64,000 bases of DNA, from NCBI RefSeq assembly GCF_012910905.1, contig NZ_WTVN01000001.1:1-64000 (forward strand), read 5' to 3'. Positions within the stretch are counted from its first letter, which is position 1; each line of letters begins with the position of its first letter. The DNA is from Aromatoleum toluvorans. Lineage in GTDB: Bacteria > Pseudomonadota > Gammaproteobacteria > Burkholderiales > Rhodocyclaceae. This document shows, piece by piece, positions 5,981 to 61,311 of this stretch. The position numbers were made by a program, and so were the translations under genes. The notes below the pieces were generated by a model. It had not been told where the DNA came from. It made no database searches and was given only the letters and a program-made list of their open reading frames with translations.

Positions 5981-6298
5981 TCAGTCCTCGGGAGCAATCT
6001 TTACCCGGAGACCGTCCATCGTCTCTTTGAAAACGATCTGGCAGGCCAGTCGGGACGTGGGACTGCGGTGTTCCGAGTTATCCAGCAGATCGTGCTCGTC
6101 CGAACCCATCGGGTCCAGGCGGTCCACGAAGGCCGGGTCGATGATCACGTGGCAGGTGGAGCAGGAGCATGTCCCGCCGCACAGGGCGAGGATCTCGCCC
6201 ACTCCGCCCTCGCGCATGACTTCCATCAGGTTCCGGGAAAACTCCGCCTTCAACGTCGTTTCCACGCCTGCCCGGTTCTCGACAAGAATCGTTCCCAT
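5981..6298 (-). CDS. [2Fe-2S] ferredoxin, adrenodoxin/putidaredoxin type
   Basis: This 105-residue ferredoxin has cluster ligands C40, C46, C49 (C-x5-C-x2-C in [10 protein letters not shown]) and C86 (LACQIV). The acidic partner-binding region is around [10 protein letters not shown]. It lies immediately upstream of a matching ferredoxin reductase, and both belong to the minus-strand series with the P450 at 12694-13947. The most likely role is the electron carrier of a three-component P450 system. The ligand positions are identical to those of the second ferredoxin at 57420-57740, which accompanies a Rieske oxygenase. Confidence 0.94.
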
Positions 6299-16085: not shown

Positions 16086-16391
16086 ATGTGTACTTTCCAT
16101 CGGGTTTGCTCTGTCGCCGAGTTGCAGAGCAAGGGGCAGCTCGGCGCTGAAGTGGGCAATCAGAAGCTCGCGCTTTTCAAAGTCGGCGAAGACTTCGTCG
16201 CCACCAACGGCCTGTGCCCGCACGCCAACGGCCCGCTAGAGGAAGGAGAGCTGGACGGCACGACCATCAGCTGCCCCTGGCACGGCTGGACCTTCGACCT
16301 GACCACCGGCGTATCGCCGGACGACCCCTGCATGATGCTGCAGCGCTACGAGGTCAAGGTGGAAGGGGACGACGTGCTGGTGGGACTATAG
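16086..16391 (+). CDS. Rieske-type [2Fe-2S] ferredoxin
   Basis: This 101-residue single-domain Rieske protein has ligands C44-x-H46 (LCPHAN) and C63-x2-H66 (CPWHGW). Such small ferredoxins deliver electrons to Rieske non-heme oxygenases or work with NirD-like systems. It has a clear AAAGGAG site and ends its operon before a strong terminator. No Rieske oxygenase is adjacent, so it may serve oxygenases elsewhere in the window or genome. Confidence 0.94.
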   Translation: MCTFHRVCSVAELQSKGQLGAEVGNQKLALFKVGEDFVATNGLCPHANGPLEEGELDGTTISCPWHGWTFDLTTGVSPDDPCMMLQRYEVKVEGDDVLVGL

Positions 16392-24264: not shown

Positions 24265-25053
24265 TCAAGATTGGCTGTTTTTCGGGGTGCCGGCAAGGGC
24301 TGTTTTGGCCTTGTTCGGGCCCTGTCGCGGAGCGCGGTAAGAGGCCCCGTCGAGCGTCAGGCAATAGGCGTTGTGGCGCAGGCGATCGACGGTGGCGGAA
24401 GCCAGCAGGCGATTGCCGGGGAAGGCCTGGTCCCACTCGGTGAAGTCGAGATTGCTGGTGACGACGGTGGCGGACTGTTCGTAACGCTCGGCGATCAGGT
24501 CGTGCAGATCTTCGTCGGCGGGTGAACGAAGTGGTTTCAGTCCGAAGTCATCAATGATGAGGACCGGAACGCGCGCGAGTTGTTGGAGCTTCCGTTCATA
24601 GGCTCCCGTTGCCCGCGCGGCGTTGAGGCTCGCGAGCAGTTGCGAGCAGGAGGCGAAGACGACGTCGTGCCCCTGGCGCACGGCGCAGTGCCCGAGCGCC
24701 TGCGCGAGGTGGCTCTTGCCGGTGCCGCAGGGGCCGACGATCAGCACCGGGGCACGCTCGTCGATGTAGCGGCCGGTGGCGAGATCATGCACCAGCGCGC
24801 GGTTGGTCGAGGGCAGCCGGTCGAACTCGAAGCCTTCGAGCGTCTTGGTGGCGCGGAAGGCCGCGCGGCGTAGCCGTGTGGCGAATTTCTTCTGCTCGCG
24901 CCGCGCGACCTCGTCCTGGATCAGCAGCGCGAGGAATTCCGTATAGGCGAGCTTCGCGTCGATCGCTTGGCGGTTGCGGGCATCGAGCGAATCGAGGATG
25001 CCGGAGAGGCGCAGCTGCTTGAGTTGCGGCGCCAGTTCGGTGGTGGGATTCAT
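24265..25053 (-). CDS. istB: IS21-family helper ATPase IstB
   Basis: This 262-residue AAA+ protein resembles DnaC/DnaA and assists the IstA transposase in target selection. Walker A GPCGTGKS lies at 107-114 and Walker B VPVLIIDDFG follows, with the IS21-type start LRLSGILDSLDAR. Length is normal for IstB. It lies 42 bases downstream of istA on the same strand. Confidence 0.96.
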   Translation of the reverse strand: MNPTTELAPQLKQLRLSGILDSLDARNRQAIDAKLAYTEFLALLIQDEVARREQKKFATRLRRAAFRATKTLEGFEFDRLPSTNRALVHDLATGRYIDERAPVLIVGPCGTGKSHLAQALGHCAVRQGHDVVFASCSQLLASLNAARATGAYERKLQQLARVPVLIIDDFGLKPLRSPADEDLHDLIAERYEQSATVVTSNLDFTEWDQAFPGNRLLASATVDRLRHNAYCLTLDGASYRAPRQGPNKAKTALAGTPKNSQS

Positions 25054-25095
25054 GGTGGCAGACTCCTTGGGTTAAAAAGGGCGCGACGCGCCCGG

Positions 25096-26643
25096 TCAGT
25101 GACAGGTGGTGGATTCGTCGGCGAAGAGCGCCGCGGTGGCGCGGGCGAACCGGGCGCGGCCGGCATACGGTTCGGTGCTCATCGGGGTGAGCGGCTGCAG
25201 GTCGTGACCGCCGGCGAGGATGGTCTTGACGGTGCGGTAATGCGGGCTGTCATGGGCGAGCGCACGCTCGCAGGCCGCCTCCAGACGGGCGGCGCCGTAG
25301 CGGGCCTTCAACTGCAGCACGCCCTGCGCGGCACGTAGCCGCTCACTGATGCGGTCGCTGAGCAGGCGCCCAATGAGCCGGGCGCAGGCCTCGCCGATCT
25401 CCCCGGCCTGCTGCAGACACCAGCTGCGGTCGTGCGCGAAGAAACGCTGGGCGGCGAGCGGTAAATGATCGGCGACGGTGCGTCGCTCGCCGGGACGACG
25501 GGCGCGGGCATGCGTGGCAACGGGCTTGAAGTCCAGATAGACCGTCACCACGGTGTCGGTCGCCCGCAGCCACAGGCGCTTGCCGACCAGCGCGCAGGGC
25601 ACCGAGTACAGCGCACGCTCGAAGCTGACGTGGCAGTCGCGATGCACCGACACCTGATGCCACGAGCCCAGATCCGGCGGCACTGCGGGCAACGGCCGCA
25701 GCACGCAGCGCTCGACGGCGAAGCTCGCGAGCGGTTTGACGCGGGTCGTGCCGTGAATGCGCAGCCCCGCTTCCTTCAACACCCAATCGCGCACCTGGGC
25801 GTTCAGGTCGGCCAGATCGCGGAAGTTGCGCGTGGGCAGGAAGTTGCCTTTGACATATTTGACGCCCGCCTCGACGACCCCCTTCTTCTGCGGATCCTGG
25901 GGCGGACACGCGTCGATCCGGAAACCGTAGCCTTCGGCGCACTCGGCGTAGGCGCGCTGCACTTCGGGGTCGTGCGCGCAGGCCTTGGTGATGGCGCACT
26001 TGGCGTTGTCGATGATGAGCCGTGCAGGGACCGCGCCGAACCACTCGAAGGCACGCCGATGGCAACCGAGCCAGGTGCGCACGCTCTGGTCCCACACGAA
26101 CTCCACGTACTGATGCCGCGAGAAACACAACGTCATCACGAACGCCCACGTGCGGCGCAGCTCGCCGGTGGCGGGATCCACAAGGTGCGGTCCGGCGCCG
26201 AAATCGACCTGTGCTGCTTCGCCCGGCGCGAACGACAGGCGCACGGTCGCCTCAGGCGGGCGCTCGCGCTCGATCGCCGCGACAAGCCGGCGCACGCTCG
26301 AATAGTGCCCGGTGAAACCGTGCTCGCGTTTGAGCGTGGCGTGGATCACCACGCCCGACACCCCCTGCGCCAACCATTGCTCCACCAGCGGCCGGTAGGC
26401 GGCGATCGACGATTGCGCGCTCGCCGGCAGCCGCGGACGGCCGATCGCCGCTGCGATCTCGGCATCCTCCGGCACCGGACTCGCCGGATCGAGCCAACCG
26501 CGGGCCGCGGCCAGCTCGCGGAAACGGGCGGCCTTCACCCGTCCCATCAGTTTCGCGCGCGCAATCTCGCGTTCGGAATCGCCCTGACGCATGCGCATCA
26601 GGGCCTGGCGGTACTCGTACATCTCGATGCTCCTGCGGGCCAC
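25096..26643 (-). CDS. istA: IS21-family transposase IstA
   Basis: This 515-residue DDE transposase has an N-terminal HTH region (MRQGDSEREIARAKLMGR). The catalytic core carries Asp in EAAQVDFGAG, Asp in LIIDNAKCA and Glu in GVVEAGVKYVKG, and a basic C-terminal domain follows. The GTG 26643 start has AGGAGGGAG upstream; an ATG 21 bases inside (MYEYRQ) is an equally possible start. Length matches the family and no frame damage is seen. Confidence 0.96.
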   Translation of the reverse strand: MARRSIEMYEYRQALMRMRQGDSEREIARAKLMGRVKAARFRELAAARGWLDPASPVPEDAEIAAAIGRPRLPASAQSSIAAYRPLVEQWLAQGVSGVVIHATLKREHGFTGHYSSVRRLVAAIERERPPEATVRLSFAPGEAAQVDFGAGPHLVDPATGELRRTWAFVMTLCFSRHQYVEFVWDQSVRTWLGCHRRAFEWFGAVPARLIIDNAKCAITKACAHDPEVQRAYAECAEGYGFRIDACPPQDPQKKGVVEAGVKYVKGNFLPTRNFRDLADLNAQVRDWVLKEAGLRIHGTTRVKPLASFAVERCVLRPLPAVPPDLGSWHQVSVHRDCHVSFERALYSVPCALVGKRLWLRATDTVVTVYLDFKPVATHARARRPGERRTVADHLPLAAQRFFAHDRSWCLQQAGEIGEACARLIGRLLSDRISERLRAAQGVLQLKARYGAARLEAACERALAHDSPHYRTVKTILAGGHDLQPLTPMSTEPYAGRARFARATAALFADESTTCH

Positions 26644-28987: not shown

Positions 28988-30382
28988 ATGGACAGAACAT
29001 CAAACCCCAAACTCTCGGACGGCACCCTGCTTTCCGACCTGATCAACCTCGAAACCCGCGAAGTCAAGATGCGGGCGCTTTCCGATCCCGAACTGTTCGA
29101 GCTCGAAATGGAGCGCATCTTCGCCAAGACGTGGGTATTCCTGGGGCACGAAACCGAAATCCCGAACAAGGGCGATTTCGTCGTCCGCGACATGGGATCG
29201 GATTCCGTGCTGATGGCACGCGGGTCGGACGGCGAGGTGTACGTCTCCCTCAACGTATGCCCCCATCGGGGCATGAAAATCTCGACCCATGACGTGGGTA
29301 ATACGATGACTCACGTCTGTATCTACCACGGCTGGGCATTCAAGCCGAACGGCGACTTCATCGGTGCGCCGGTCGAGAAGGAATGCATGCACGGGAAGAT
29401 GATGACCAAGCAGGAACTCGGCTTGAAGAAGGCGCGCGTCGCGATCTATGGCGGCTTGGTCTTTGCGACGTGGAACATCGAGGGCCCCAGCTTCGAGGAC
29501 TTCCTCGGGGACGCGAAATGGTATTTCGACACGCTCTGGTGCCGCACTGACAAGGGCATGGAAGTGCTCGGCCCCCCGCAGCGTTTCACCATCCGTGCGA
29601 ACTGGAAGACCGCCTGCGAGCAGTCGGCGTCGGACGGATTCCATGTGCTGACCTTGCACCGCTGGCTGTCGGAAGTGGGTCCCTATCGCAAGCCAGGCAG
29701 CGAAGGTGGTGGTGGCGACCTGACGCCGGAGATGTACGGCACCGAGGTCTACACCGCGCACGCACACACGATGCGATGCATCGAGTTGGACCGCAAGATC
29801 CGACGCCTGACGGGGAAGGACCCGAGCGAGTTGTCGATCAAGGAGAAACTCGAGGCGCTGCCCCCGCCGGGCATCACGCCCGAGATGCTGCCGGAAGTGC
29901 TCCGTCGCTTCAGTGATGACCAGCTGCGCGTCATGGCCTGGCGTCCGCCCCAGGTGGGCAACTTCTTTCCCAACGGGCTGTTCGAGTTCGTCTACATCCC
30001 CTCGCCCGATGGCGTGATCGGGGTCATGGCGCTGCATGCGTATGTCCCGAAGGGGCCGGACAAGCTCGAATTCGTGAACTGGATCCTGGCCGAGAAGGAC
30101 ACTCCGCCGGAACTGAAGGCCAAGATGCTGCGCCTCGGCGTCCAACTCCTGGGCACCTCGGGCATGGTCGAGCAGGACGATTCGGACACTTGGCCGCACC
30201 AGACGCTCGCGGCGAAGGGTGCCGTTAGCAAGCACATCACGATGAAGTATCAATCGATGTACGAGAACAAGCGGCTGGAAGGCTGGCCAGGCCCCGGCGA
30301 TGTCGGCGACGGCTTCACGAAAGACGACACCCAGTGGCGCTGGTGGGAATACTGGTACGAACTGATGACTGCCGAGAACTGA
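28988..30382 (+). CDS. Rieske non-heme iron ring-hydroxylating oxygenase, alpha subunit (copy 1)
   Basis: This 464-residue alpha subunit has Rieske ligands C91-x-H93 (CPHRG) and C111-x2-H114 (CIYHGW). The mononuclear iron motif is D216-x2-H219-x4-H224 in SASDGFHVLTLH. It has AAGGAGGAGG upstream of ATG. With the beta subunit 34 bases downstream it forms an aromatic-ring-hydroxylating dioxygenase that needs a ferredoxin and reductase. No such pair is adjacent, but 57420-57740 and 56147-57382 could serve. It is co-linear with the 464-residue copy at 59745-61139, with identical metal-ligand numbering. The substrate is unknown. Confidence 0.95.
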   Translation: MDRTSNPKLSDGTLLSDLINLETREVKMRALSDPELFELEMERIFAKTWVFLGHETEIPNKGDFVVRDMGSDSVLMARGSDGEVYVSLNVCPHRGMKISTHDVGNTMTHVCIYHGWAFKPNGDFIGAPVEKECMHGKMMTKQELGLKKARVAIYGGLVFATWNIEGPSFEDFLGDAKWYFDTLWCRTDKGMEVLGPPQRFTIRANWKTACEQSASDGFHVLTLHRWLSEVGPYRKPGSEGGGGDLTPEMYGTEVYTAHAHTMRCIELDRKIRRLTGKDPSELSIKEKLEALPPPGITPEMLPEVLRRFSDDQLRVMAWRPPQVGNFFPNGLFEFVYIPSPDGVIGVMALHAYVPKGPDKLEFVNWILAEKDTPPELKAKMLRLGVQLLGTSGMVEQDDSDTWPHQTLAAKGAVSKHITMKYQSMYENKRLEGWPGPGDVGDGFTKDDTQWRWWEYWYELMTAEN

Positions 30383-35655: not shown

Positions 35656-36699
35656 TCAGCCCCGCATGCCGAGCACTGCCGAAATGTCGGCACTCGGGTC
35701 GGCGTCGGCGCCATAGCCGAAGTCCCCGCGCTGCTGCCTCTCGGCGAGACGCACCATCAGCAATCGGTAGCGGTTGCCGGGGCCGTCGAAACGCGAGCTC
35801 AGGTCGCGGCGTTCGGTGGACTCGAAATAGCGTGCGTTCTGAGGGCGCAGCACCGAGTTGTCCTGGGGCTGGATCACGTAGGAGATGCGCGGCATCAGCC
35901 AGCGAAATGGTGCCGGCGCATGGACAGTGTAGTTCGTCTGGTCAACACGAGAACGGTGCTTGCCGACAGGCACAAAGGGCTGCACGTTCGGAATCGGGTA
36001 GCCTGGGGTGAAGTTCGGGTAGGAGATGCATACGTTGTTGCGCAGATGGACATGCAGCACTGCACGCAAATCCTGGTACTGGGCGCGTACGCCTCCGATC
36101 CAGCGCATCACCGGTGCAACCGACTTGCGGGTGACGTTGCGGATGCGAGTCACCGTCTCGGAGGTCGAATGGACCTCGACGACGTCGTTTTCAGACTGGC
36201 TGTCACCGATCGCATTGGCATGCAGGAAGTCGGCATGCGTCAAATCGATGAGGTTCTCGACGGACAGCGGCGAGGCCGCATCGAAGCGCACCGCGCGCTG
36301 TGTGTAGCGCGGGATCCCCTGACCATCGGGCGGCAGGAAGGGGATGTTCGGGATCAGTTCCTCGTGCGCGTTATCGGGGTTTCCGTACCACGCCCAGATA
36401 TACCCGTAGCGCTCGACAGCCGGGTAGAAACCGGAGCCGTTCGTGAAGGTACTTGCGCCGGCGCGCATCGCTTCAAGGCGGTCGGGGCGAAACTCGGCCG
36501 CATATAACCTCCCGCCGTCGCGCCATAGATATACGTCCTGCGCATGGACGATACGCCGTACCGCCCGCTCGCCGATGTCCGCACTGTAGGCGACCGGAAA
36601 CCAGGTGTCGCGCAGATCGAGATTGATCGGTACCCAGTCGCGCTTGGACGTCACCTCCGCTTCGCGCCCTGCCGCATCCATCATCGGGACTTCGCTCAT
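35656..36699 (-). CDS. Rieske-oxygenase-like catalytic subunit lacking the Rieske cluster
   Basis: This 347-residue protein follows the layout of a Rieske non-heme oxygenase (LRDTWFPVAYSADIG at the start, VERYGYIWAWYGNPDN before the catalytic domain). The segment that should hold C-x-H and C-x2-H has neither; no Cys occurs in the first 150 residues. The mononuclear iron motif is intact: D152-x2-H155-x4-H160 in IDLTHADFLH. ATG 36699 overlaps the stop of the next upstream gene (36696) by four bases. That gene encodes a protein with the opposite arrangement, so the two probably form one oxygenase. Confidence 0.85.
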   Translation of the reverse strand: MSEVPMMDAAGREAEVTSKRDWVPINLDLRDTWFPVAYSADIGERAVRRIVHAQDVYLWRDGGRLYAAEFRPDRLEAMRAGASTFTNGSGFYPAVERYGYIWAWYGNPDNAHEELIPNIPFLPPDGQGIPRYTQRAVRFDAASPLSVENLIDLTHADFLHANAIGDSQSENDVVEVHSTSETVTRIRNVTRKSVAPVMRWIGGVRAQYQDLRAVLHVHLRNNVCISYPNFTPGYPIPNVQPFVPVGKHRSRVDQTNYTVHAPAPFRWLMPRISYVIQPQDNSVLRPQNARYFESTERRDLSSRFDGPGNRYRLLMVRLAERQQRGDFGYGADADPSADISAVLGMRG

Positions 36700-37652
36700 A
36701 CTGCGCACCTCTCCTGCACGGGCACCACGCGCTCGGCCGGCGTGCTCGCATCGGTCTTCGCCAATCTGCGATCGCGTGACGGTGCAACTTCGAGTGCCGC
36801 CACGGCTGCGCCGTCGATATGGGGGAAGATTGCGAACGGAGCACGTCCGATCGCCCGCGCCATCCGCCACCGCCACGACAGCGGAGCAGGCGCGGTATGA
36901 AGAAAACCGCGCCAGACCAGACTGGTGGTACCGCGCCTGTTCTCGCTGGCAGCGATGAAGATCGTGACGAGCGGGTCTTCGTCGGCGCTGAGGAGTTCCA
37001 CGCGAATGTCGCCGCCCGTTAGCGGTACGCGAGTACGTACCCACAACGAATGGTCTCGCACGAAGGCCGGCCCATTTCCCTTGCCCTTCCACACCGCGCC
37101 TCGATCGAGGACAAGATGCCCGCCGTCGCGGCGCGCATCGCCGAGGAAAAAATCGGTGATGTGCACGCTGGGGAAGGAAAGCAGGCATTCCGGGCCGTCG
37201 AGCATCACGTCGAGATATTGCTCGAACGCGATATTGGCCACCGCTGAACCGGTATGTTCGCGACCTGCAGCCCGATACGACGCGCCCGGCAATTCGGCGG
37301 CAGGAGTTCCCTTCCCCCGCCAGACGTGGATGAAGCCGTTCGCCTCGGACGCCGGAAAGACGCGCGCCGCATAACGCGCGGGCACCCGCTCATCGCGGCG
37401 CAGATTGGGGATGTCATTGCACAGGCCCGTCGCGCCGTCGAAGGTCCAGCCGTGGTAGGGACACTGCAGACCGGCGGGTTTCACGGGTCCGGGCGATAGC
37501 GGCACACGCCGGTGCGGACACCGGTCCTCCAGCGCGAACACTGCGCCCCTCCCGTCGCGAAACACGGCGAGTTGCTCGCCTTCGCACGTCACCGCGAGCG
37601 CCTTGTCACCTTGCACCGCCTCGGACAGCGCGACCGCCCACCATCGTCCCAT
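36696..37652 (-). CDS. Rieske-domain protein with degenerate non-heme iron site (partner of 35656-36699)
   Basis: This 318-residue protein has an intact N-terminal Rieske domain: C45-x-H47 (CPHRR) and C64-x2-H67 (CPYHGW). A Rieske-oxygenase-like C-terminal domain follows. Where the iron ligands D-x2-H-x4-H are expected it reads DVMLDGPEC (from D150), so both His are lost. ATG 37652 has GGGGAGG seven bases upstream. Its stop overlaps the start of the Rieske-less subunit gene (ATGA), implying coupled synthesis. It probably supplies electrons to the mononuclear iron of its partner. Confidence 0.85.
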   Translation of the reverse strand: MGRWWAVALSEAVQGDKALAVTCEGEQLAVFRDGRGAVFALEDRCPHRRVPLSPGPVKPAGLQCPYHGWTFDGATGLCNDIPNLRRDERVPARYAARVFPASEANGFIHVWRGKGTPAAELPGASYRAAGREHTGSAVANIAFEQYLDVMLDGPECLLSFPSVHITDFFLGDARRDGGHLVLDRGAVWKGKGNGPAFVRDHSLWVRTRVPLTGGDIRVELLSADEDPLVTIFIAASENRRGTTSLVWRGFLHTAPAPLSWRWRMARAIGRAPFAIFPHIDGAAVAALEVAPSRDRRLAKTDASTPAERVVPVQERCAV

Positions 37653-41370: not shown

Positions 41371-43812
41371 TCAGGCAGCCGCACGCAAAAGGGCTCCGCG
41401 TGCGCCGCTCGGTTCGCGCGGGTTGAGCATGAAATGCGACAGCGCCGGAATCAGGATCAGGGCACCGAGCATGTTCCACAGGAACATGAAGGTCAGCAGG
41501 ATCCCCATGTCGGCCTGGAACTTGATCGGCGACCATGCCCAGGTGATCACGCCGGCAGCCATCGTGAGTCCCACCAACGCGACCACCTTGCCGGTGAAAT
41601 CGAGCGACTTGCGATAGGCATCGCGCAAGCTTCCCCCGCGACGCTGGACGGCAATCTGCACACTCAGCAGATAAAGCGCGTAGTCGACGCCGACGCCGAC
41701 CGCGATGACCGGCAGGGTCGCGACCTTGAGTCCGATACCGAGCCAGACCATCAGCGCCTTGCAGAGGATCGTGGTGATGACGAGCGGGATCAGTGCGACG
41801 ATCGTCGCGCGAACGCTGCGGAACGTGATCAGGCACAGCAGCGCCGTTGCACCATAAACCGCGAGATACATCGTGACGATGCTCTTCTGTACCTCGATGT
41901 TGGTCGCCGCCTCGATACCAGCGCTGCCCGCAGCCAGCAGGAACTGCACCGGCTCCTTTGCATCGGGCGCGGTATTGTTGGCAGCCGCGTACGCTTCCGC
42001 AGTCTGCAGAATGCGTCCCACGGTATCCGCCTTGTGGTCCTTCAGGTAAGCGACCAGGGGCGACACGGAGCAACTCTGGTTCGTGATGTCCGGCGTCGCG
42101 ATCACGGCTGCCGACACGGAGCCGTCGGTGATCGACTGGTTACGGCTGATCGTGAGCCACTTGCCACTGCCCTCGAACATCGCCGAGGTCACGAAACGCA
42201 CCGTTTCGGCCAGTGAGGTCGTCGTCTGGACCGCCGGATCCTGCCGCAGCAGTTGTGCCAGCCCGTCCATCTTCTGCAGGCTCGAATACAGGCGACAGCC
42301 CTCGTCGCCGGTCTTCATGATGACCACGAACTGGTCGCTCGAGAGCCCGTAGTGTTCCGTGATGTATGCGTTGTCGCGGTTGTAGCGCGACTCGGGCCGA
42401 AGTTCGGGCGCCCCGGCATCCAGATCTCCGATGCGAAGGTCCTGCATGACGATTGCGGAGACGACGGTCACGATCGCGGCAATGGCGATGACCGGAATCG
42501 CCCACCTCCGCTCGGTGAGTTCGTCCAAACCGTGCCAGATCCGCCCCGGCAACGAACGTCGGCCGCCCGCCTTCATGTCGTCCGCCGTGGCATGCCGGAT
42601 GGCCGATTCGCTGACGCCGAGATAGGAGAGTGCGACCGGGATGAGGAAAAGCTTCGTGAAGATCAGGACCGAAACGCCGACGCTGGTGGTCAGGGCCAGA
42701 TCGCGGATAACCGGGATGTCGATGATGATCAGTACAGCAAAACCGACGATGTTCGCCAGCAGTGCCGTAAGGCCGGCCATGAACAGGCGCCGGAAGGTGT
42801 AGCGCGACGCGACGTACTTGTGGGTGCCACGGCCAATGTCCTGGATGATGCCGTTCATCTTCTGCGCGCCGTGCGACAGCCCGATAGCGAAGATCAGGAA
42901 AGGCACCAGGATCGAATACGGATCGAGCTCGTACCCGAGCAACTGCATCAGCCCAAGCAGCCACACCACGCCGATCACGGCGACCGTCACGAGAAGCGCC
43001 GTGCTGCGCACGCAGCGGGTGTAGAGATAGACGAAGAACGCGGCAACGACGACTGACACCGCGAAGAACACCATCACCTCGCGCAGGCCCGCGATCAGAT
43101 CGCCGACGATCTTCGCGAAGCCGACGATATGGATGCCGACCGTGTCACTCTCGTAGGTGCGGATCTTCGCTTCGAGAGCGTCCGCAAACTCGCCGTAATT
43201 CAGCGCTTCACCGGTTTTCGGATGGGTATCCAGCAGCGGCGCCACGATCATGCTCGACTTCATGTCATTTGCAACGAGTCTGCCGACGATGCCCGCCTTG
43301 CCGATGTTCTCGCGCAGTTTCGCGATCTCGTTCGCGCTGCCGTCGAAGCTCGCGGGCATGACCGCGCCGCCGGTGATGCCGTCTTCGGTCACCTCCCGCC
43401 AGCGGACGATCGGCATCCAGATCGACTTCATCCACGAACGATCGACGCCGGGAATCAGGTAAAGGTCATCATTGACTTTCTTGAGCACGTCAAGGTACCC
43501 GGGGTCGAAGACGTCCCCCGACTTGTTCTCGACGACGATCCGGATCGTGTTGCCCAGACCCGGCAACTCGCTTTTGTTATCCAGGTAATTCTTGATGTAC
43601 GGGCTGCCGAGCGGAATCATCCGCTCGAAATTCGCATTGACCTGGATGCGCGTCGCGGCGAAGCCGAGTACGAGAGTCGCCACAAGGCATGCCAGGAGCA
43701 CGACGATGCGATTGTTGAAGATGATGCGCTCGAGCACGCTGCCGGAACCGAGATCGAAATCCTTCAGGTCCCGGATCACCGGCATCACTCTTTGTTCGCT
43801 GTGGCCTGCCAT
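41371..43812 (-). CDS. RND/MMPL-superfamily permease
   Basis: This 813-residue membrane protein has an N-terminal helix (RIVVLLACLVATLVLGFAAT), a large periplasmic loop, and a cluster of helices (VFFAVSVVVAAFFVYLY, ILVPFLIFAIGLSHGAQKMN). The same pattern repeats (VALIPLVITTILCKALMVWL, LPVIAVGVGVDYALYLLSVQ), giving the 1+5+1+5 layout of RND pumps. It is shorter than AcrB types and resembles the hopanoid/lipid-type (HpnN/MMPL) exporters. With the YCF48-like, DUF1329 and DUF1302 genes downstream in coordinate order it forms a conserved envelope set often seen with hydrophobic-compound catabolism. Import or export role is unresolved. Confidence 0.92.
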   Translation of the reverse strand: MAGHSEQRVMPVIRDLKDFDLGSGSVLERIIFNNRIVVLLACLVATLVLGFAATRIQVNANFERMIPLGSPYIKNYLDNKSELPGLGNTIRIVVENKSGDVFDPGYLDVLKKVNDDLYLIPGVDRSWMKSIWMPIVRWREVTEDGITGGAVMPASFDGSANEIAKLRENIGKAGIVGRLVANDMKSSMIVAPLLDTHPKTGEALNYGEFADALEAKIRTYESDTVGIHIVGFAKIVGDLIAGLREVMVFFAVSVVVAAFFVYLYTRCVRSTALLVTVAVIGVVWLLGLMQLLGYELDPYSILVPFLIFAIGLSHGAQKMNGIIQDIGRGTHKYVASRYTFRRLFMAGLTALLANIVGFAVLIIIDIPVIRDLALTTSVGVSVLIFTKLFLIPVALSYLGVSESAIRHATADDMKAGGRRSLPGRIWHGLDELTERRWAIPVIAIAAIVTVVSAIVMQDLRIGDLDAGAPELRPESRYNRDNAYITEHYGLSSDQFVVIMKTGDEGCRLYSSLQKMDGLAQLLRQDPAVQTTTSLAETVRFVTSAMFEGSGKWLTISRNQSITDGSVSAAVIATPDITNQSCSVSPLVAYLKDHKADTVGRILQTAEAYAAANNTAPDAKEPVQFLLAAGSAGIEAATNIEVQKSIVTMYLAVYGATALLCLITFRSVRATIVALIPLVITTILCKALMVWLGIGLKVATLPVIAVGVGVDYALYLLSVQIAVQRRGGSLRDAYRKSLDFTGKVVALVGLTMAAGVITWAWSPIKFQADMGILLTFMFLWNMLGALILIPALSHFMLNPREPSGARGALLRAAA

Positions 43813-43848
43813 GCTGTGTCTCGCAAATTTCAGTATCAGGAGAGGCCG

Positions 43849-44976
43849 TTACCGGAGGGGCAAACGGATCAGATCAACGCCATTGACTCGGGCGAGCAGG
43901 AGCTCTTCCGGACCGGCCATCGCAGCGGCGAATACCTCCCCGCCGCGTTGCACCTCGAGCGCTGCCACGCTCGCCCCATCATCGTTACTCAGCAGAACCT
44001 GACCAGATTGGGTCACGAACACCATGCGTCCCGCGCCGCGGTCGAGGGCGGCGACAAGGCTCGCATCGCTGCCCATGGAGAGAGAGGACCAGCTCGCCGC
44101 CCCATCGCGGCTAATAAAGGCATTGCCACGCAGCCCGTAGACGATCAGCTTCGAGTCCCCTGCGGTGATACCGAAATACGTGCCCTTATAGGGCGTTTCG
44201 ACGGTCTGGAACCGGGCCGCGTCTCGATCGAGGCGACGCACCAGACCTTGCTCTCCGGCAAGAAACACCCCACCGTCGGGCGTCGGCTCGATCGCATACA
44301 GGTGCATGCGACGCCCGTTGTCCGCGCGCTCGATCCACGGCTCCCATGTGCTGCCACCGTCAGTCGTATGCAGCAGCAGACCGAAAGCGCCAGCCAGAAA
44401 ACCCTCGCCGCGCTCGTTTACGTTGATGTCGAGAAACGGATAGGCCAGCACGCCCGGCGTCGCGGACTGCTCGGCCGCCATCTCGACGTCCCGCAACACG
44501 CGTCCTGCCTCTTCATTGCCCGCATTGGCCAGAGCGCTGTAGTGTTTGGAGAGCAGTTCGAAGAGAGCATGACCGTCCATTACCCGGGACCAGGTTTCCC
44601 CGCCGTTATCCGAACGCAGGACGACTGCATCGTGTCCGAGCGCCCATGCGGTGCTGCCCGCCCCGAAGCGCACCGTCGTGAAGTCTGCGCTCAGCGGCGC
44701 GACGATCTGGGACCAGTTCCGACCGGCGTCGCGTGACAGCAGAATGATCCCGCGCGGCCCGACGGCCAGGGCGCGCCCATCCTTGCTGGCGATACCTGAC
44801 ATTGCACCCCGCAAGGACTGGGGAGAGATCACCGCGGGGACGGTTAATACGTCGCGCACGGCGGAACCCGTGGCGAGCGCCACGCCTGCCGCGCCGAGAA
44901 CCGCTGCCGCAAGGGTCAGACGCAGACGCCGGCCCGGGACCATGGAACGGGAGATCGAACTGCTAACGCGATTCAA
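43849..44976 (-). CDS. YCF48-like beta-propeller (BNR repeat) exported protein
   Basis: This 375-residue protein has repeated sialidase-type Asp-box motifs: SRDAGRNWSQ, SDNGGETWSR, TTDGGSTWEP and SRDGAASWSS. These mark a beta-propeller of the YCF48/HCF136 type. I chose TTG 44976 because AAGGAG lies seven bases upstream; ATG 44943 is an alternative without a good site. The N-terminus then has an Arg-rich stretch and a hydrophobic segment (LTLAAAVLGAAGVALATGSA) as a signal or anchor. Such proteins commonly accompany RND permeases and DUF1302/DUF1329 proteins, suggesting a periplasmic assembly role. Confidence 0.87.
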   Translation of the reverse strand: MNRVSSSISRSMVPGRRLRLTLAAAVLGAAGVALATGSAVRDVLTVPAVISPQSLRGAMSGIASKDGRALAVGPRGIILLSRDAGRNWSQIVAPLSADFTTVRFGAGSTAWALGHDAVVLRSDNGGETWSRVMDGHALFELLSKHYSALANAGNEEAGRVLRDVEMAAEQSATPGVLAYPFLDINVNERGEGFLAGAFGLLLHTTDGGSTWEPWIERADNGRRMHLYAIEPTPDGGVFLAGEQGLVRRLDRDAARFQTVETPYKGTYFGITAGDSKLIVYGLRGNAFISRDGAASWSSLSMGSDASLVAALDRGAGRMVFVTQSGQVLLSNDDGASVAALEVQRGGEVFAAAMAGPEELLLARVNGVDLIRLPLR

Positions 44977-45110
44977 GAGACAACTCCTTGCCGATGCGAT
45001 CCCCGCCGCCCACAACAAGCACCGGGCGGGGGTATCTATCTGGAGTGAGCCGGAACCGGAAGGGGCAACACGGCAAGCCGCGATGCCCGCTTCCACATGA
45101 GGGCTGACGA

Positions 45111-46466
45111 TCAGCGCGCGGTTTCCTGCGCGACGATTGCCTCGGGGTTGAGTTCGCGGTTGGCCATCGGCGCCTTCAGAACGCCATAACCGCCGACCAG
45201 GCCGTCATTCACCAGCGCGTACATGCCCTTGTTGAAGTCATACACCACGTTCTTCACGGTGTAGGGCGCCTGGACGTCATAGAGCTGAACCATCGAGTTG
45301 AAGATCGAGCGATACAACTGGCCGCTCTGGTCGAAGGCGTCGTACAGGCCTGCGCCGTATGTATCCTCGTCAAAGTAGTACATGCGCTTGGCGTACACAT
45401 GGCGGACGCCCGGCTTCAGCGTCGCTTCGACGACCCAGACGCGGTGAAGCTCCCAACGCCAGCAGGCCGGATTCGGGTGCTTGTCCATGAACTGCTCTTC
45501 GACGCCGCAACCGAAATAAAGCTTGTAGGCGTTGTAGGGGATGTACATCTCCTTCTTGCCGACCAGCTTAAATTCGAAACGGTCCATCTGTCCCGAGAAT
45601 ACGAAGAGCTCGTCGAACAGCGTGACGCCGCCCATGCTCGCGACCGGCGTGTCGTAGGCGAACTCCGGAGCGAGCTTGATGCGGCGCTGTCCCGGCGTGT
45701 AGCTCCACGCGCGGCGTGGCTTCTCGGTCGGATCGAGGAAGTCCGAGAGACCGGTCGCCTCGCCTGCCTTGCGGATCGGCGCCTGCGTTACCGAGTAGGT
45801 GCGCCAGTAGAGCTTTGCGTCACGGCCGTCCAGGTCGTCATGGTAGTAGGGCGTCTCTTCCATCGTCTTCTGCTGCGCCGCCATGACCACCTTGCCGTTG
45901 GAGTCCACGACCCACGAGCGCGACGACTTGGTCGTCGTATCGGCCTTGTAGCGAAGCTGCTGGTTCCACATCACCTCGTAGCCGGTCTTCGGCATGGGGA
46001 ACGGCAGACCGCCCCGGCATGCTTCCTCGACGGAGAGGCCGTTCTTGGCGGTGTTGCATGTCGTCGCATTGCGCACCGTGTTGTTCAGGACCTTGGCGGG
46101 ATACGACGCCGTACGGTGCGACGGATAGATATCCATATAGAAGCTCGGGTACTTCTTCAGGAGCTCCTTCTGCCCTTCCGACAGCTTGTCTGCGTGCTGC
46201 TGATAGTTCTTGCCGTCGATCCGGAGCAGGGGCTTTTCGTCCTTGAACGGATCCGCCCAGAAACCGCTGTCGGGCTTGAAGTCGGCCGGAGCCTTGGTCA
46301 GCCCTCCGGTGTATTCCGGGATCGTCCCTTCCTTGTTGCCCGCCTGGATCGCGCCGTACTTGGTCAGCGTCGCACCGAGCTGTTTCGCCTCTTCTGCCGT
46401 AACCGCCGCCATCGCGTGGCTCGAGAGGACCGCCGCGGCGGCCCATACGAAATTGCGCATCTTCAT
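45111..46466 (-). CDS. DUF1329 family exported protein (outer-membrane lipoprotein-sorting-like fold)
   Basis: This 451-residue protein has a clear signal peptide (MKMRNFVWAAAAVLSSHAMA) and the DUF1329 pattern: EEAKQLGATLTKYGAIQAGN and IPEYTGGL near the start, then RRAWSYTPGQRRIKLAPEFA, and WELHRVWVVEATLKPG. The fold is related to LolA/LolB-like lipoprotein carriers. It lies 26 bases downstream of the DUF1302 gene. The pair recurs next to catabolic clusters for steroids, alkanes and terpenoids; a role in moving a hydrophobic substrate across the envelope is inferred. Confidence 0.93.
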   Translation of the reverse strand: MKMRNFVWAAAAVLSSHAMAAVTAEEAKQLGATLTKYGAIQAGNKEGTIPEYTGGLTKAPADFKPDSGFWADPFKDEKPLLRIDGKNYQQHADKLSEGQKELLKKYPSFYMDIYPSHRTASYPAKVLNNTVRNATTCNTAKNGLSVEEACRGGLPFPMPKTGYEVMWNQQLRYKADTTTKSSRSWVVDSNGKVVMAAQQKTMEETPYYHDDLDGRDAKLYWRTYSVTQAPIRKAGEATGLSDFLDPTEKPRRAWSYTPGQRRIKLAPEFAYDTPVASMGGVTLFDELFVFSGQMDRFEFKLVGKKEMYIPYNAYKLYFGCGVEEQFMDKHPNPACWRWELHRVWVVEATLKPGVRHVYAKRMYYFDEDTYGAGLYDAFDQSGQLYRSIFNSMVQLYDVQAPYTVKNVVYDFNKGMYALVNDGLVGGYGVLKAPMANRELNPEAIVAQETAR

Positions 46467-46492
46467 GTCTCTCGTCTCCTGTTTGCGGCCTG

Positions 46493-48193
46493 TCAGAAAG
46501 CCGTCTTGAACGTGAAGGACAGCCAGCCACGGTCGATCACACCAACCGAGGAGTTGCTGTGGGCCGCACCGCCGGTAATCCGTTCCTCACCGCGAACGAC
46601 GCCCTTGCGCACCGGCAAGCTGCGGTCAGAGTAGTTGAGGGCGAATTCGTACTTGGACGCATAGGTCCAGGTGGTACCGATCGACCAACGCAGCTCACCC
46701 TCTGTGCCGCCACCTGAAGAGGGTGCGTTTCCGGAAAGCCCATAGTTGATGCTGACCGGCACCGCCAGGTCCCATGACGGAAAGATGTTGAGATATTGCG
46801 GCGAGAACCTGACCGCGAGCTGCAGGGCATCGACGGTCGAACAGCCATCCCGCTTGGTGCCGGTCCCCGGGCGTCCGACTGCCGAATTGACGCAACTTGC
46901 CGCACCGACCTTGCGATACAGCTGCTCGTTCTCGGTCACGCGATCGAGTCGGTTGTATGCGATCTCCGCGATCAATGTCCCGGTATCCCACATCGGCGTC
47001 TGCGGTAACAGATAAACGCCATTCACCACCGCATGCCAGGTGTCGCCGCGCGCGCCCGAGTCGAGCGTATGCGACGCCGGCGTATTCAAAGGCCCGTTCT
47101 TGCGGTACGACAACTCGGTACCCACGCTTACGCCACCGATCACACGCGAGAAGCTCACACTGTATTGCTCGATGTCCTCGGGATACAGGAAGCGTGCCTT
47201 GCTGGGTAATACGGCGGGACCGAGGCGAACGAAGTCCGAGAGCTGCACACCGAGTTCCGGCGCGTAGTCGTCGAACTTGCGGTAGTAAGCACCGAAGGTC
47301 GACTCGATCGCCTCCACGTTCCAGCGCGCACCCACGCCCCAATTGCCGCGCTTGCTCGGTTCCTTCGCGTCGATGATCGAGGCCTTGAGCTGGCCGACCC
47401 CGAAGGAAAGGTTATCGGACGACGGCGCGGTGTCAGCACCCATCAGGTAAGTGCCGGCGTGCGGTACGCGGGTAGGCTCCCAGTCGTAGAAATACTGCCC
47501 GACGACGGTCACGCTATCCGTGAGCTGGGCACTCGCGTGTACCTGCCCGATCGGAAGGAAAACTTCCTTGGTCTCAATGCCGGGGTTGGTTACGGCCTTC
47601 ACGCCGTCAACCGGGGACTGTCCGTAGGAGATTGCATGCGCACCGATCAGCAGGCCTTCACCCCACACGTTGGTCTGGCGACCGACCTTCAGGTTGAGCG
47701 GCACCTTGCCGAGATCGAGGTTGGTCCAGACGAAGGCGTCGAGGATTTCGCCCGAGGGACCATTCACATAGCGCTTGACCGTGCCGTTGTACTTGTCATT
47801 GCGATAGGCGGTGGCAGTGCCGGTCGGCGCAGTCACCGAATGATCGTCGTAGGCATGGTCGTACCACGCTGCACCGGTCACACGAGCGCCGATTTTGCCG
47901 CGATAGCTGACATCGAATTCGGAGAGCAGATCGAGACGGTTGGTCACGATGTCGCCTCGATCGAACTTGCTGTCGCCCTCGTCATAGACCGGATTGCGCA
48001 TCAGCTTCTTGTCCTGATCCTCGACACGCACGCCCGCCGTATATCGGATCGTGTTATCCCAACGCATCTTGACGTCCGGGTTGCCGGTTTCGACCTCGAA
48101 CGCCGACGCCCCCCCCACCCATGCAAGTGCAAGTGCGGCAGTGACGCCCCTCAGCGCGAACCGGGTACGGACAGACCTGCTCCCATTATTCAT
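46493..48193 (-). CDS. DUF1302 family outer-membrane beta-barrel protein
   Basis: This 566-residue protein has a signal peptide (FALRGVTAALALAWVGGASA) and then FEVETGNPDVKMRWDNTIRY, the DUF1302 start. Alternating aromatic/hydrophobic strands follow, and it ends in Phe (WLSFTFKTAF), as expected for a BAM-inserted barrel. ATG 48193 is preceded by GAGGAG; a longer frame to 48250 lacks a site. It is the first gene of the envelope operon and probably forms a channel for the hydrophobic substrate or an associated product. Confidence 0.92.
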   Translation of the reverse strand: MNNGSRSVRTRFALRGVTAALALAWVGGASAFEVETGNPDVKMRWDNTIRYTAGVRVEDQDKKLMRNPVYDEGDSKFDRGDIVTNRLDLLSEFDVSYRGKIGARVTGAAWYDHAYDDHSVTAPTGTATAYRNDKYNGTVKRYVNGPSGEILDAFVWTNLDLGKVPLNLKVGRQTNVWGEGLLIGAHAISYGQSPVDGVKAVTNPGIETKEVFLPIGQVHASAQLTDSVTVVGQYFYDWEPTRVPHAGTYLMGADTAPSSDNLSFGVGQLKASIIDAKEPSKRGNWGVGARWNVEAIESTFGAYYRKFDDYAPELGVQLSDFVRLGPAVLPSKARFLYPEDIEQYSVSFSRVIGGVSVGTELSYRKNGPLNTPASHTLDSGARGDTWHAVVNGVYLLPQTPMWDTGTLIAEIAYNRLDRVTENEQLYRKVGAASCVNSAVGRPGTGTKRDGCSTVDALQLAVRFSPQYLNIFPSWDLAVPVSINYGLSGNAPSSGGGTEGELRWSIGTTWTYASKYEFALNYSDRSLPVRKGVVRGEERITGGAAHSNSSVGVIDRGWLSFTFKTAF

Positions 48194-48465
48194 GAATTTG
48201 TCTCCTCTGGTTATATCGATGACCGTGACACCCTGACCTTGTCTTTTCACGCCTCGTTGGAGGGCGAATCCGGCCTGTTTTCAGATCAATCGCTGTGTCC
48301 CGGTACGTCGGGTTTTCACACAACTGAATTGTAGCGGGTAATTTCTCTTAATTCTACCCTTGAACGTAGATTCTCTTATTAGAATTTTGCCCCACGCGAG
48401 CAATCTGCTTGATAATTCATTTGCCATAGTCAAAACACACACCGATCCGGGTCCGCATCGACGAA
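48194..48465. promoter_or_regulatory. AT-rich promoter region of the envelope operon with an inverted repeat
   Basis: This 272-base region is markedly AT-rich around 48340-48430 and should hold the promoter of the minus-strand DUF1302 operon. AATTCTA (48350-48356) and TAGAATT (48380-48386) form a spaced inverted repeat that could bind a regulator. The SDR gene on the other side ends at 48466, so this region also follows that operon. Confidence 0.5.
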
Positions 48466-59744: not shown

Positions 59745-61139
59745 TCAGGCCTTGGCGTTCATCAGTTCGTTCCAGTACAGCCACCAGTGCCACTGGGTGT
59801 CGTCCTTGGTGAACCCTTCATTGACAATGCCCGGCCCGGGCCAGCCGGCAGGGGCGCCGGTCTCGTACACCGCCTGGTACTTGAGGGTCGAGCGACGCCC
59901 GCGCGCGCCCTTGGCGGCGAGGGTCATGTGGGGCCAGGTATCGGAGTCGTCCTGCTCGACCATGCCCGAGGTGCCGAACAACTGGATGCTCTGCATCAGC
60001 ATCTTGTCCTTGAGCTCCTGCGGGGCATCCTTCTCAGCAAGCACCCAGTTCACGAACTCGAGTTGATCCGGCCCCTTCGGCACGTAGGCGTGCAGCAGCG
60101 TGAGGCCGAGCACGGAGCCGTCGGCCTGCGGGATATACACGAACGCGAATAGCACGTTGGGGAAAATCCCGCCCACCTGCGGCGGCATCGACACCATCAC
60201 TTCGAGTTGCTCTTCGCTCAGGCGCTTCCTGAGCTGAGGCAACATTTCATGCGTCATCCCCGGCGGCGGCAGTGCTTCGAGCTTCTGGTCCACCGTCAGC
60301 TCCGCCGGATCGAGGCCAGTGAGCTTCCTGATTTTGCGTCCGAGGTCGATGCAGCGCAGCGCATGGCCGTGCGGCGAACTCACCTCGACGCCGTACATCT
60401 CGGGCGACAGGTCGGCGCTGCCGCCCTCGCCACTCTTGGAATAGTTGCCTACCTCACCCAGCCAGCGGTGAAGGGTCAGCGTGTGGTAGCCGTCGGCGGC
60501 CGACTGCTCGCCAGCGGCTTTCCAGTTCGCGCGCACGATGAAACGCTGCGGCGGGCCGAGCACTTCGAGCCCCTTGTCGCTGCGCTCGAACAAGGTGTCG
60601 AAATACCATTTCGCATCACCGAGGAACTCTTCGAACGACGGTCCCTCCAGGTCCCACGTCGCGAAAATGATGCCGCCGTAGAGCGTCACCCGCGCCTGCG
60701 GCAGGCCCAGATCCTCCTTCGGCATCATCTTCCCGTGCATGCACTCCTTCTCGACCGGCGCACCGATGAACTCGCCACTCGGCTTGAACGCCCATCCGTG
60801 GTAGATGCACTTGTGAATCTGGGTATTGCCCGCATCGACCGTCGAGATGCGCATGCCGCGGTGGGGACACACGTTGAGCGAGACGTGGATGTTCCCGTCC
60901 TTCGCACGCGCGACGATGACCGAATCCGACCCCATGTCGCGCACGACGAAATCGCCGGAGTTCGGCACTTCGGATTCGTGCCCGAGCAGCAGCCAGGTCT
61001 TGCCGAAGACGCGATCCATCTCCAGCTGATAGATCTCCGGATCCGACAGGGCCCGCATCTGGACTTCCCGCGTCGGGACGCGAACCAGATCGGACAGCGG
61101 CGTACCGTCCGCCAACGTGTAGCTTGCCTTGGTCAACAT
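59745..61139 (-). CDS. Rieske non-heme iron ring-hydroxylating oxygenase, alpha subunit (copy 2)
   Basis: This 464-residue alpha subunit has Rieske ligands C91/H93 (CPHRG) and C111/H114 (CIYHGW), and the iron motif ADGYHTLTLH (D216, H219, H224). It matches the copy at 28988-30382 in length and ligand positions, with near-identical blocks such as IYHGWAFKP and APVEKECMHGKMM. ATG 61139 has AGGAG seven bases upstream; the frame extends further upstream without a better site. It belongs to an operon with beta, MFS, ferredoxin and reductase genes, giving a complete multicomponent oxygenase. Confidence 0.95.
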   Translation of the reverse strand: MLTKASYTLADGTPLSDLVRVPTREVQMRALSDPEIYQLEMDRVFGKTWLLLGHESEVPNSGDFVVRDMGSDSVIVARAKDGNIHVSLNVCPHRGMRISTVDAGNTQIHKCIYHGWAFKPSGEFIGAPVEKECMHGKMMPKEDLGLPQARVTLYGGIIFATWDLEGPSFEEFLGDAKWYFDTLFERSDKGLEVLGPPQRFIVRANWKAAGEQSAADGYHTLTLHRWLGEVGNYSKSGEGGSADLSPEMYGVEVSSPHGHALRCIDLGRKIRKLTGLDPAELTVDQKLEALPPPGMTHEMLPQLRKRLSEEQLEVMVSMPPQVGGIFPNVLFAFVYIPQADGSVLGLTLLHAYVPKGPDQLEFVNWVLAEKDAPQELKDKMLMQSIQLFGTSGMVEQDDSDTWPHMTLAAKGARGRRSTLKYQAVYETGAPAGWPGPGIVNEGFTKDDTQWHWWLYWNELMNAKA

Positions 61140-61311
61140 TGTCATCTCCTGTGGAGTGAAGCCGTCCGTGAGGACGATCCTCGTTCGATGGGCCTGACGG
61201 CCACTTCTTGTGGGTTGTTCATTTGCTCGAGCTCCGGTGCTCGGCACCCTGTGTTTCGGCAGCCGTAGCCCGCCGGCCGACGTCCTTATTGCGAAGACGT
61301 GCGTGGTTCCG

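Follow-up and report, generated by a model that had tools for sequence, protein, structure and literature searches.

Can two overlapping genes, each encoding an oxygenase-like chain with only one of the two metal sites of a Rieske oxygenase, together specify a single enzyme? This question is raised by a gene pair in a 64,000-nucleotide stretch of Aromatoleum toluvorans DNA, which is called the window below. Both genes lie on the minus strand: P0002 (37652-36696, 318 aa) is the upstream gene of the pair, and P0001 (36699-35656, 347 aa) is the second. The start of P0001 overlaps the stop codon of P0002 in the tetranucleotide ATGA (36696..36699, minus strand), an arrangement that makes translational coupling of the two genes possible. 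The initial annotation of this DNA had the coordinates of both genes and their overlap right, to which the minus strand has to be added, and its central claim was that the two roles of a Rieske oxygenase are divided between the two gene products. In the genome to which the window belongs, the Rieske domain occurs at 17 places, and P0001 is matched once.

In P0002 an intact Rieske domain precedes an oxygenase-like C-terminal domain that lacks an iron site. In a Pfam search at E up to 1, only the Rieske and Rieske_2 models matched (Rieske at 6.2e-22), and neither a catalytic domain nor a reductase domain was detected. The cluster ligands C45-x-H47 and C64-x2-H67 (37452..37520, minus strand) are invariant in the aligned relatives (38/38) and in all rows before thinning (58/58, window included). 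Alignment with 36 complete oxygenases showed that the stretch where D-x2-H-x4-H is expected reads N140-x2-F143-x4-D148 in P0002 (37209..37235, minus strand). Among the 38 aligned relatives the bridging Asp and the second His are present in none, the third Asp falls into a gap in every one, and His at the column of the first His is still kept in 28. The initial annotation had identified the dead iron motif as DVMLDGPEC; this register is wrong, since the true stretch lies upstream, but with both Asp residues and the second His gone, its conclusion that the iron site is lost stands. Judged by its residues, P0002 on its own would thus have the cluster half of a one-chain Rieske α subunit and lack the mononuclear iron site and the bridging Asp. 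The fold of P0002 was predicted well as a monomer (pLDDT 87). The first Foldseek match of this model was dicamba monooxygenase, aligned over 350 columns with TM-scores of 0.63/0.60 and an rmsd of 11.4 Å, and the rmsd of the Foldseek matches overall was 5-12 Å. Such high values suggest that the domains may fit better than their arrangement does, and that this arrangement is perhaps unlike that of an ordinary oxygenase.

P0001 combines a degenerate Rieske-like N-terminal domain, devoid of cluster ligands, with a VanA_C catalytic domain. At E up to 1, VanA_C (1.9e-26) was its sole Pfam match; the Rieske models gave none. The iron motif N149-x2-D152-x2-H155-x4-H160 (36220..36255, minus strand) is invariant in 27/27 aligned members of the family, and D280 (35860..35862, minus strand), the probable third iron ligand, aligns with an Asp of 36/36 complete oxygenases and is likewise present in 27/27. 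D152 we take to be the bridging Asp, and not a ligand, as in the structures of Rieske oxygenases; in ordinary oxygenases the bridging Asp meets a Rieske His. Both cluster Cys and the second cluster His fall into gaps in all 27 aligned sequences, and the single Cys of P0001 is residue 224, with none in residues 1-150. P0001 alone would accordingly offer the iron site and the bridging Asp of a one-chain Rieske α subunit and, as far as the sequence tells, none of its cluster ligands. A remnant of the Rieske domain, with both cluster loops deleted, was recognized by hhalign and alignment in residues 31-123 (36331..36609, minus strand). In the hhalign profile comparison, residues 2-128 of P0002 matched residues 31-123 of P0001 with a probability of 86.6 and an E-value of 4.4e-6; the direct comparison of the two sequences was weak (E 0.023). 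Both chains look as if they derive from two-domain subunits. The monomer prediction for P0001 was poor (pLDDT 55, residues 31-120 better), and its iron pocket is therefore argued from sequence.

All ligand positions named in the initial annotation, C45, H47, C64 and H67 in P0002 and D152, H155 and H160 in P0001, were confirmed, as was its remark that the first 150 residues of P0001 contain no Cys and that this chain has no Rieske motif. Two ways in which a complete set of Rieske ligands might have been missed were rejected: the motif is found in 0/61 P0001 rows, with the cluster loops appearing as deletions in the alignment, and the motif in the neighbouring frame is that of P0002 itself. Searches for P0002 relatives in viral_contigs and for P0001 relatives in a phage collection returned none.

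The complementary state of the two chains is not confined to the window. The comparison set comprised 36 complete oxygenases, all nine site residues being present in 36/36; five loci were kept out of it, three because they are the pair itself (L086-L088) and two as neighbours of places already included (L096, L097). In the full sets of rows before thinning, the Rieske motif was present in 58/58 P0002 rows and 0/61 P0001 rows. The motif N-x2-D-x2-H-x4-H was found in 59 of the 61 P0001 rows, the two exceptions (L058, L060) being fragments. D-x2-H-x3/4-H following the Rieske motif was absent from 57 of the 58 P0002 rows, and the one copy, in L009, lies by position outside the aligned motif. The third-ligand pattern missed the alphaproteobacterial members and L105, and the count for the D280 column was taken from the alignment. 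For the alignments, near-identical rows were thinned, which kept 37/57 P0002 loci and 26/60 P0001 loci plus the window, and four short P0001 rows (L042, L057, L058 and L060) were excluded from the P0001 alignment. The same complementary state was seen in 17 loci fetched otherwise, several of which are the same place twice. Five ordinary oxygenases that had appeared to be iron-less chains (L068, L069, L070, L072 and L075) contain D-x2-H-x3-H and are therefore complete. When P0002 and P0001 are taken together, every ligand of both metal sites is present, and the two-chain pair would by its residues have the ligand set of a Rieske oxygenase.

A species-wide scan seeded on exact stretches of P0001, with one genome per species for 84,980 species, yielded 60 loci. 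They include members of Thauera, Aromatoleum, Massilia, Pseudoduganella, Zoogloea, Paraburkholderia and Polaromonas, as well as Pseudomonas, Stutzerimonas, Halopseudomonas, Marinobacter, Acidocella and sphingomonads. Both genes were found in 57/60 loci, so that the co-occurring homologues with the same losses for which a search had been proposed do exist. In 57/57 of these loci the genes are neighbours on the same strand with P0002 first, at estimated gaps of -14 to 66 bases. Two of the remaining three loci (L042 and L060) start at a contig end, and the third (L058) carries a deletion. In this last locus, from Aromatoleum toluolicum, the deletion (near 6000) begins at the start of the Rieske gene and reaches into the iron gene as far as about residue 238, with the neighbouring genes present; it is either real or an assembly collapse. 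Of 149 genomes in the genus that includes Pseudomonas vancouverensis, the same 6 carry relatives of P0002 and of P0001, and none carries one alone (E up to 1e-40). In the family of a Sphingomonadaceae genome, P0002 relatives occur in 3/189 genomes, and P0001 adjoins P0002 in 5/5 places above 290 bits, which lie in those three genomes and in Paraburkholderia fungorum. The four records of a plasmid collection with the best P0001 matches are also the four with the best P0002 matches; three further records cover at least 80% of P0002 at about 26% identity, and one further record covers 82% of P0001 at 22.7% identity. In the samples of the order and the phylum, P0001 was detected in the window's own genome only (1/399 at 1e-30; 1/398 at 1e-25). 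The P0002 profile reached 8 other genomes in the order sample, at 9 places scoring 109-121 bits versus 490 for the window, all of them complete oxygenases. Within the window's family (101 genomes), 26 of the 29 VanA_C matches (E up to 1e-10) are complete one-chain oxygenases and 3 are this pair. Solitary P0002 was sought in the order, plasmid, Pseudomonas-genus and Sphingomonadaceae-family samples, with part of the candidate places per genome scored. In one sphingomonad genome (L105, 4871-6882) we observed a second, divergent pair of a Rieske-only and an iron-only gene, complete and adjacent, located between genes that by eye resemble sdhA and sdhB.

Purifying selection acts on both genes: dN/dS against three near relatives was 0.02-0.06 for P0001 and 0.25-0.30 for P0002, and between two Pseudomonas it was 0.04 and 0.09, respectively. 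The distances of the two genes correlate over 48 loci with r 0.96, a value reached in 0/999 permutations and confounded by joint transfer and by shared ancestry, the latter of which would by itself account for much of r. Four lines of evidence speak strongly for the two metal sites being split between the products of this gene pair: the constant order and strand, the all-or-none occurrence within the 149 Pseudomonas genomes, the losses that complement each other and the purifying selection on both genes. In this respect the central claim of the initial annotation held. A duplication origin of the pair was neither shown nor rejected by trees of 17 P0002 relatives, 13 P0001 relatives and the 36 complete oxygenases. 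In the catalytic-domain tree the two families were joined with a support of 23.7 only, at a point where long branches meet; on the full alignment, one clade for both families was not rejected (p-AU 0.167). The smallest FastTree clade that held both families also contained 13-14 complete oxygenases, with supports of 0.89 for the Rieske part, 0.92 for the catalytic part and 0.42 for the whole.

The pair is part of a minus-strand gene run consisting of DUF1302, DUF1329, YCF48-like, RND/MMPL transporter, VOC-like, enoyl-CoA hydratase-like, SDR, zinc-type dehydrogenase, P0002, P0001 and MFS genes. Their names were taken from Pfam and NCBIfam, except for the YCF48-like, RND and enoyl-CoA hydratase genes, which were named after their counterparts in a similar gene order in Massilia putida. 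The DUF1302/DUF1329/YCF48-like/RND cassette upstream of the pair (41371-48250, minus strand) resembles AmeABCD of Castellaniella defragrans, an exporter for monoterpene tolerance that has close homologues in Thauera terpenica (PMC6394551). Of the four cassette genes, at least one was found in 16/60 loci when flanks of up to 6 kb were considered. Elsewhere the window encodes a P450, an aldehyde dehydrogenase, a 3-hydroxyacyl-CoA dehydrogenase and two fumarylacetoacetate-type hydrolases. The neighbourhood resembles a terpenoid-type catabolic island, and our guess is that the substrate is hydrophobic, perhaps a terpenoid. The resin-acid (dit) pathway was considered as a context and set aside, as the literature consulted, including passages of PMC10710418, showed nothing tying the pair to dit. 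A Rieske ferredoxin (16086-16391, plus strand) and two ferredoxin-reductase-like genes of the window could serve as electron suppliers. The window also contains two paralogous α subunits of ring-hydroxylating dioxygenases (28988-30382, plus strand, and 59745-61247, minus strand), the second of which is about 63-69% identical to relatives of the first, and two genes (24265-26643, minus strand) that by eye resemble an IS21-type transposase pair. In P. vancouverensis, SDR, VOC, CoA-transferase, SDR and acyl-CoA dehydrogenase genes come after the pair; LLM/F420-type genes and a small 2Fe-2S protein surround it on two sphingomonad plasmids. The neighbours of the pair therefore vary between groups. 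Beside the pair on the plasmids of Croceicoccus marinus and Novosphingobium resinovorum (L063, L064), an LLM/F420-dependent oxidoreductase together with the F420 biosynthesis genes cofC, cofH and npdG was observed.

We consider it likely that P0002 and P0001 constitute one heteromeric Rieske non-heme-iron oxygenase, with the cluster on one subunit and the iron on the other. The subunits of an ordinary Rieske oxygenase are arranged so that about 12 Å separate a cluster from the iron of the adjacent subunit, and the characterised enzymes are C3 oligomers (PMC12445004). Since the electron step ordinarily already crosses subunits, the loss of one site per subunit can leave one kind of interface working. 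P0002 would be an α-like subunit that carries the [2Fe-2S] cluster only and is supplied with electrons by a ferredoxin or a reductase whose gene lies elsewhere; the electrons would leave it through H67 to D152 of P0001. P0001 would be an α-like subunit with the mononuclear iron only (H155, H160 and D280), which would bind the substrate and O2 and perform the chemistry. We infer a physical hetero-oligomer of the two chains with this metal content, this electron path and oxygenase activity. Two kinds of subunit cannot alternate around a three-membered ring, from which we deduce either a trimer with one live interface or an assembly other than C3; by the same deduction, a mixed trimer of either composition would have one productive interface. 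That the pair represents an obligately heteromeric class of bacterial Rieske oxygenases, in which each α-like subunit has permanently lost one metal site and which assembles as an asymmetric single-interface trimer or an even-numbered ring, seems to us evenly balanced between true and false.

The inability of a three-membered ring to alternate two subunits, together with the C3 symmetry of the characterised enzymes, would also suit a different role for P0002, namely that of a Rieske protein with an additional domain which serves as a dedicated electron carrier and docks transiently on homotrimers of P0001. The Rieske domain of P0002 also matches ferredoxin models (AndAb at 2.9e-12, a score below the curated cut-off of AndAb), and the faster evolution of P0002, whose distances are 1.4x those of P0001, might count against a subunit, as it would be expected of a looser carrier. 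However, the best Rieske matches of P0002 are mostly oxygenase α chains, and the large oxygenase-like C-terminal domain that it keeps would be needless for a carrier; we regard such a carrier as improbable. The low confidence of the P0001 model and the putative nature of the oxygenase activity leave some room for P0001 having become a non-redox enzyme that uses the VanA_C fold and P0002 having another role in the same pathway, but the N/D/H/H residues and the third Asp are invariant in 27/27 sequences, bridging Asp included, and P0001 stands in fixed pairing with a Rieske protein, which makes this very unlikely. Each chain does lack a site that the 36 comparison oxygenases have, as would two broken remnants of ordinary oxygenases produced by decay or by an assembly artefact. 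Yet the same state recurs at 57 loci in many genera, named isolates included, and selection preserves both genes, so that the probability of mere remnants is negligible.

The heteromeric oxygenase that we favour can be compared with several known systems. Kunugi et al. 2013 are said to have assigned the cluster of the two-chain chlorophyllide a oxygenase (CAO) of Micromonas pusilla (MpCAO) to one chain and the iron to the other. MpCAO, which we liken to the pair by description, is an enzyme of pigment synthesis in a eukaryotic alga, whereas the pair is found in bacterial, probably catabolic, clusters. Like the proposed enzyme, MpCAO is a single Rieske oxygenase on two polypeptides; it is active in vitro, and a heterodimeric or trimer-of-dimers form has been suggested for it (PMC9615114). 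Similarly, NdmC of Pseudomonas putida CBB5 (from NdmCDE, a 7-methylxanthine N7-demethylase) is described as an iron chain without a Rieske cluster for which electrons are postulated to come from the cluster of another protein (PMC4408171), and P0001 would share with it the character of an iron-bearing oxygenase chain whose Rieske cluster is on another protein. In NdmCDE the reductase NdmD carries the extra Rieske cluster as a fusion, and the GST-like protein NdmE is required (PMC4408171), whereas here the cluster is on a second oxygenase-like chain in which Pfam (E up to 1) found no fused reductase. NdmA/NdmB is likewise a hetero-oligomer (α3-α'3) of two oxygenase α chains (PMC12445004), but NdmA and NdmB each have a Rieske cluster (PMC4408171), unlike P0001. 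Dicamba O-demethylase (DdmC/DMO) and guaiacol O-demethylase GdmA are among the top sequence matches of both chains, whose solved relatives also include SxtT/GxtA, and DMO is the top Foldseek match of both models; in DMO and GdmA both sites are on one chain of an α3 homotrimer (PMC12445004), whereas the pair splits them. In the open-licence PMC literature we found neither a description of the pair nor a bacterial family with the sites divided between two oxygenase-like chains. The idea of split sites has precedents in NdmC/NdmD and Micromonas CAO (PMC4408171 and PMC9615114), so that the label of a little-described class, given to the pair initially, fits this family and not the principle. We assign the pair to the Rieske oxygenases as a variant, and would not give that name to either chain on its own.

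Three annotated plasmid records give the iron gene the name 'oxygenase' or 'aromatic ring-hydroxylating dioxygenase subunit alpha' and list the partner as a Rieske protein of its own; as the chains are annotated separately, either one expressed alone would be expected to fail. Since P0002 and P0001 travel together across many bacteria, they probably must combine to give one working enzyme. In homotrimers every subunit carries both sites, and donor and acceptor therefore cannot be altered separately; in a natural pair with the roles on separate genes, either site could be mutated, labelled or titrated alone. The pair also raises the question of how two complementary chains assemble in a family that is described as forming C3 oligomers, and, if the obligately heteromeric class is real, its asymmetric-trimer form would be a natural single-interface Rieske oxygenase.
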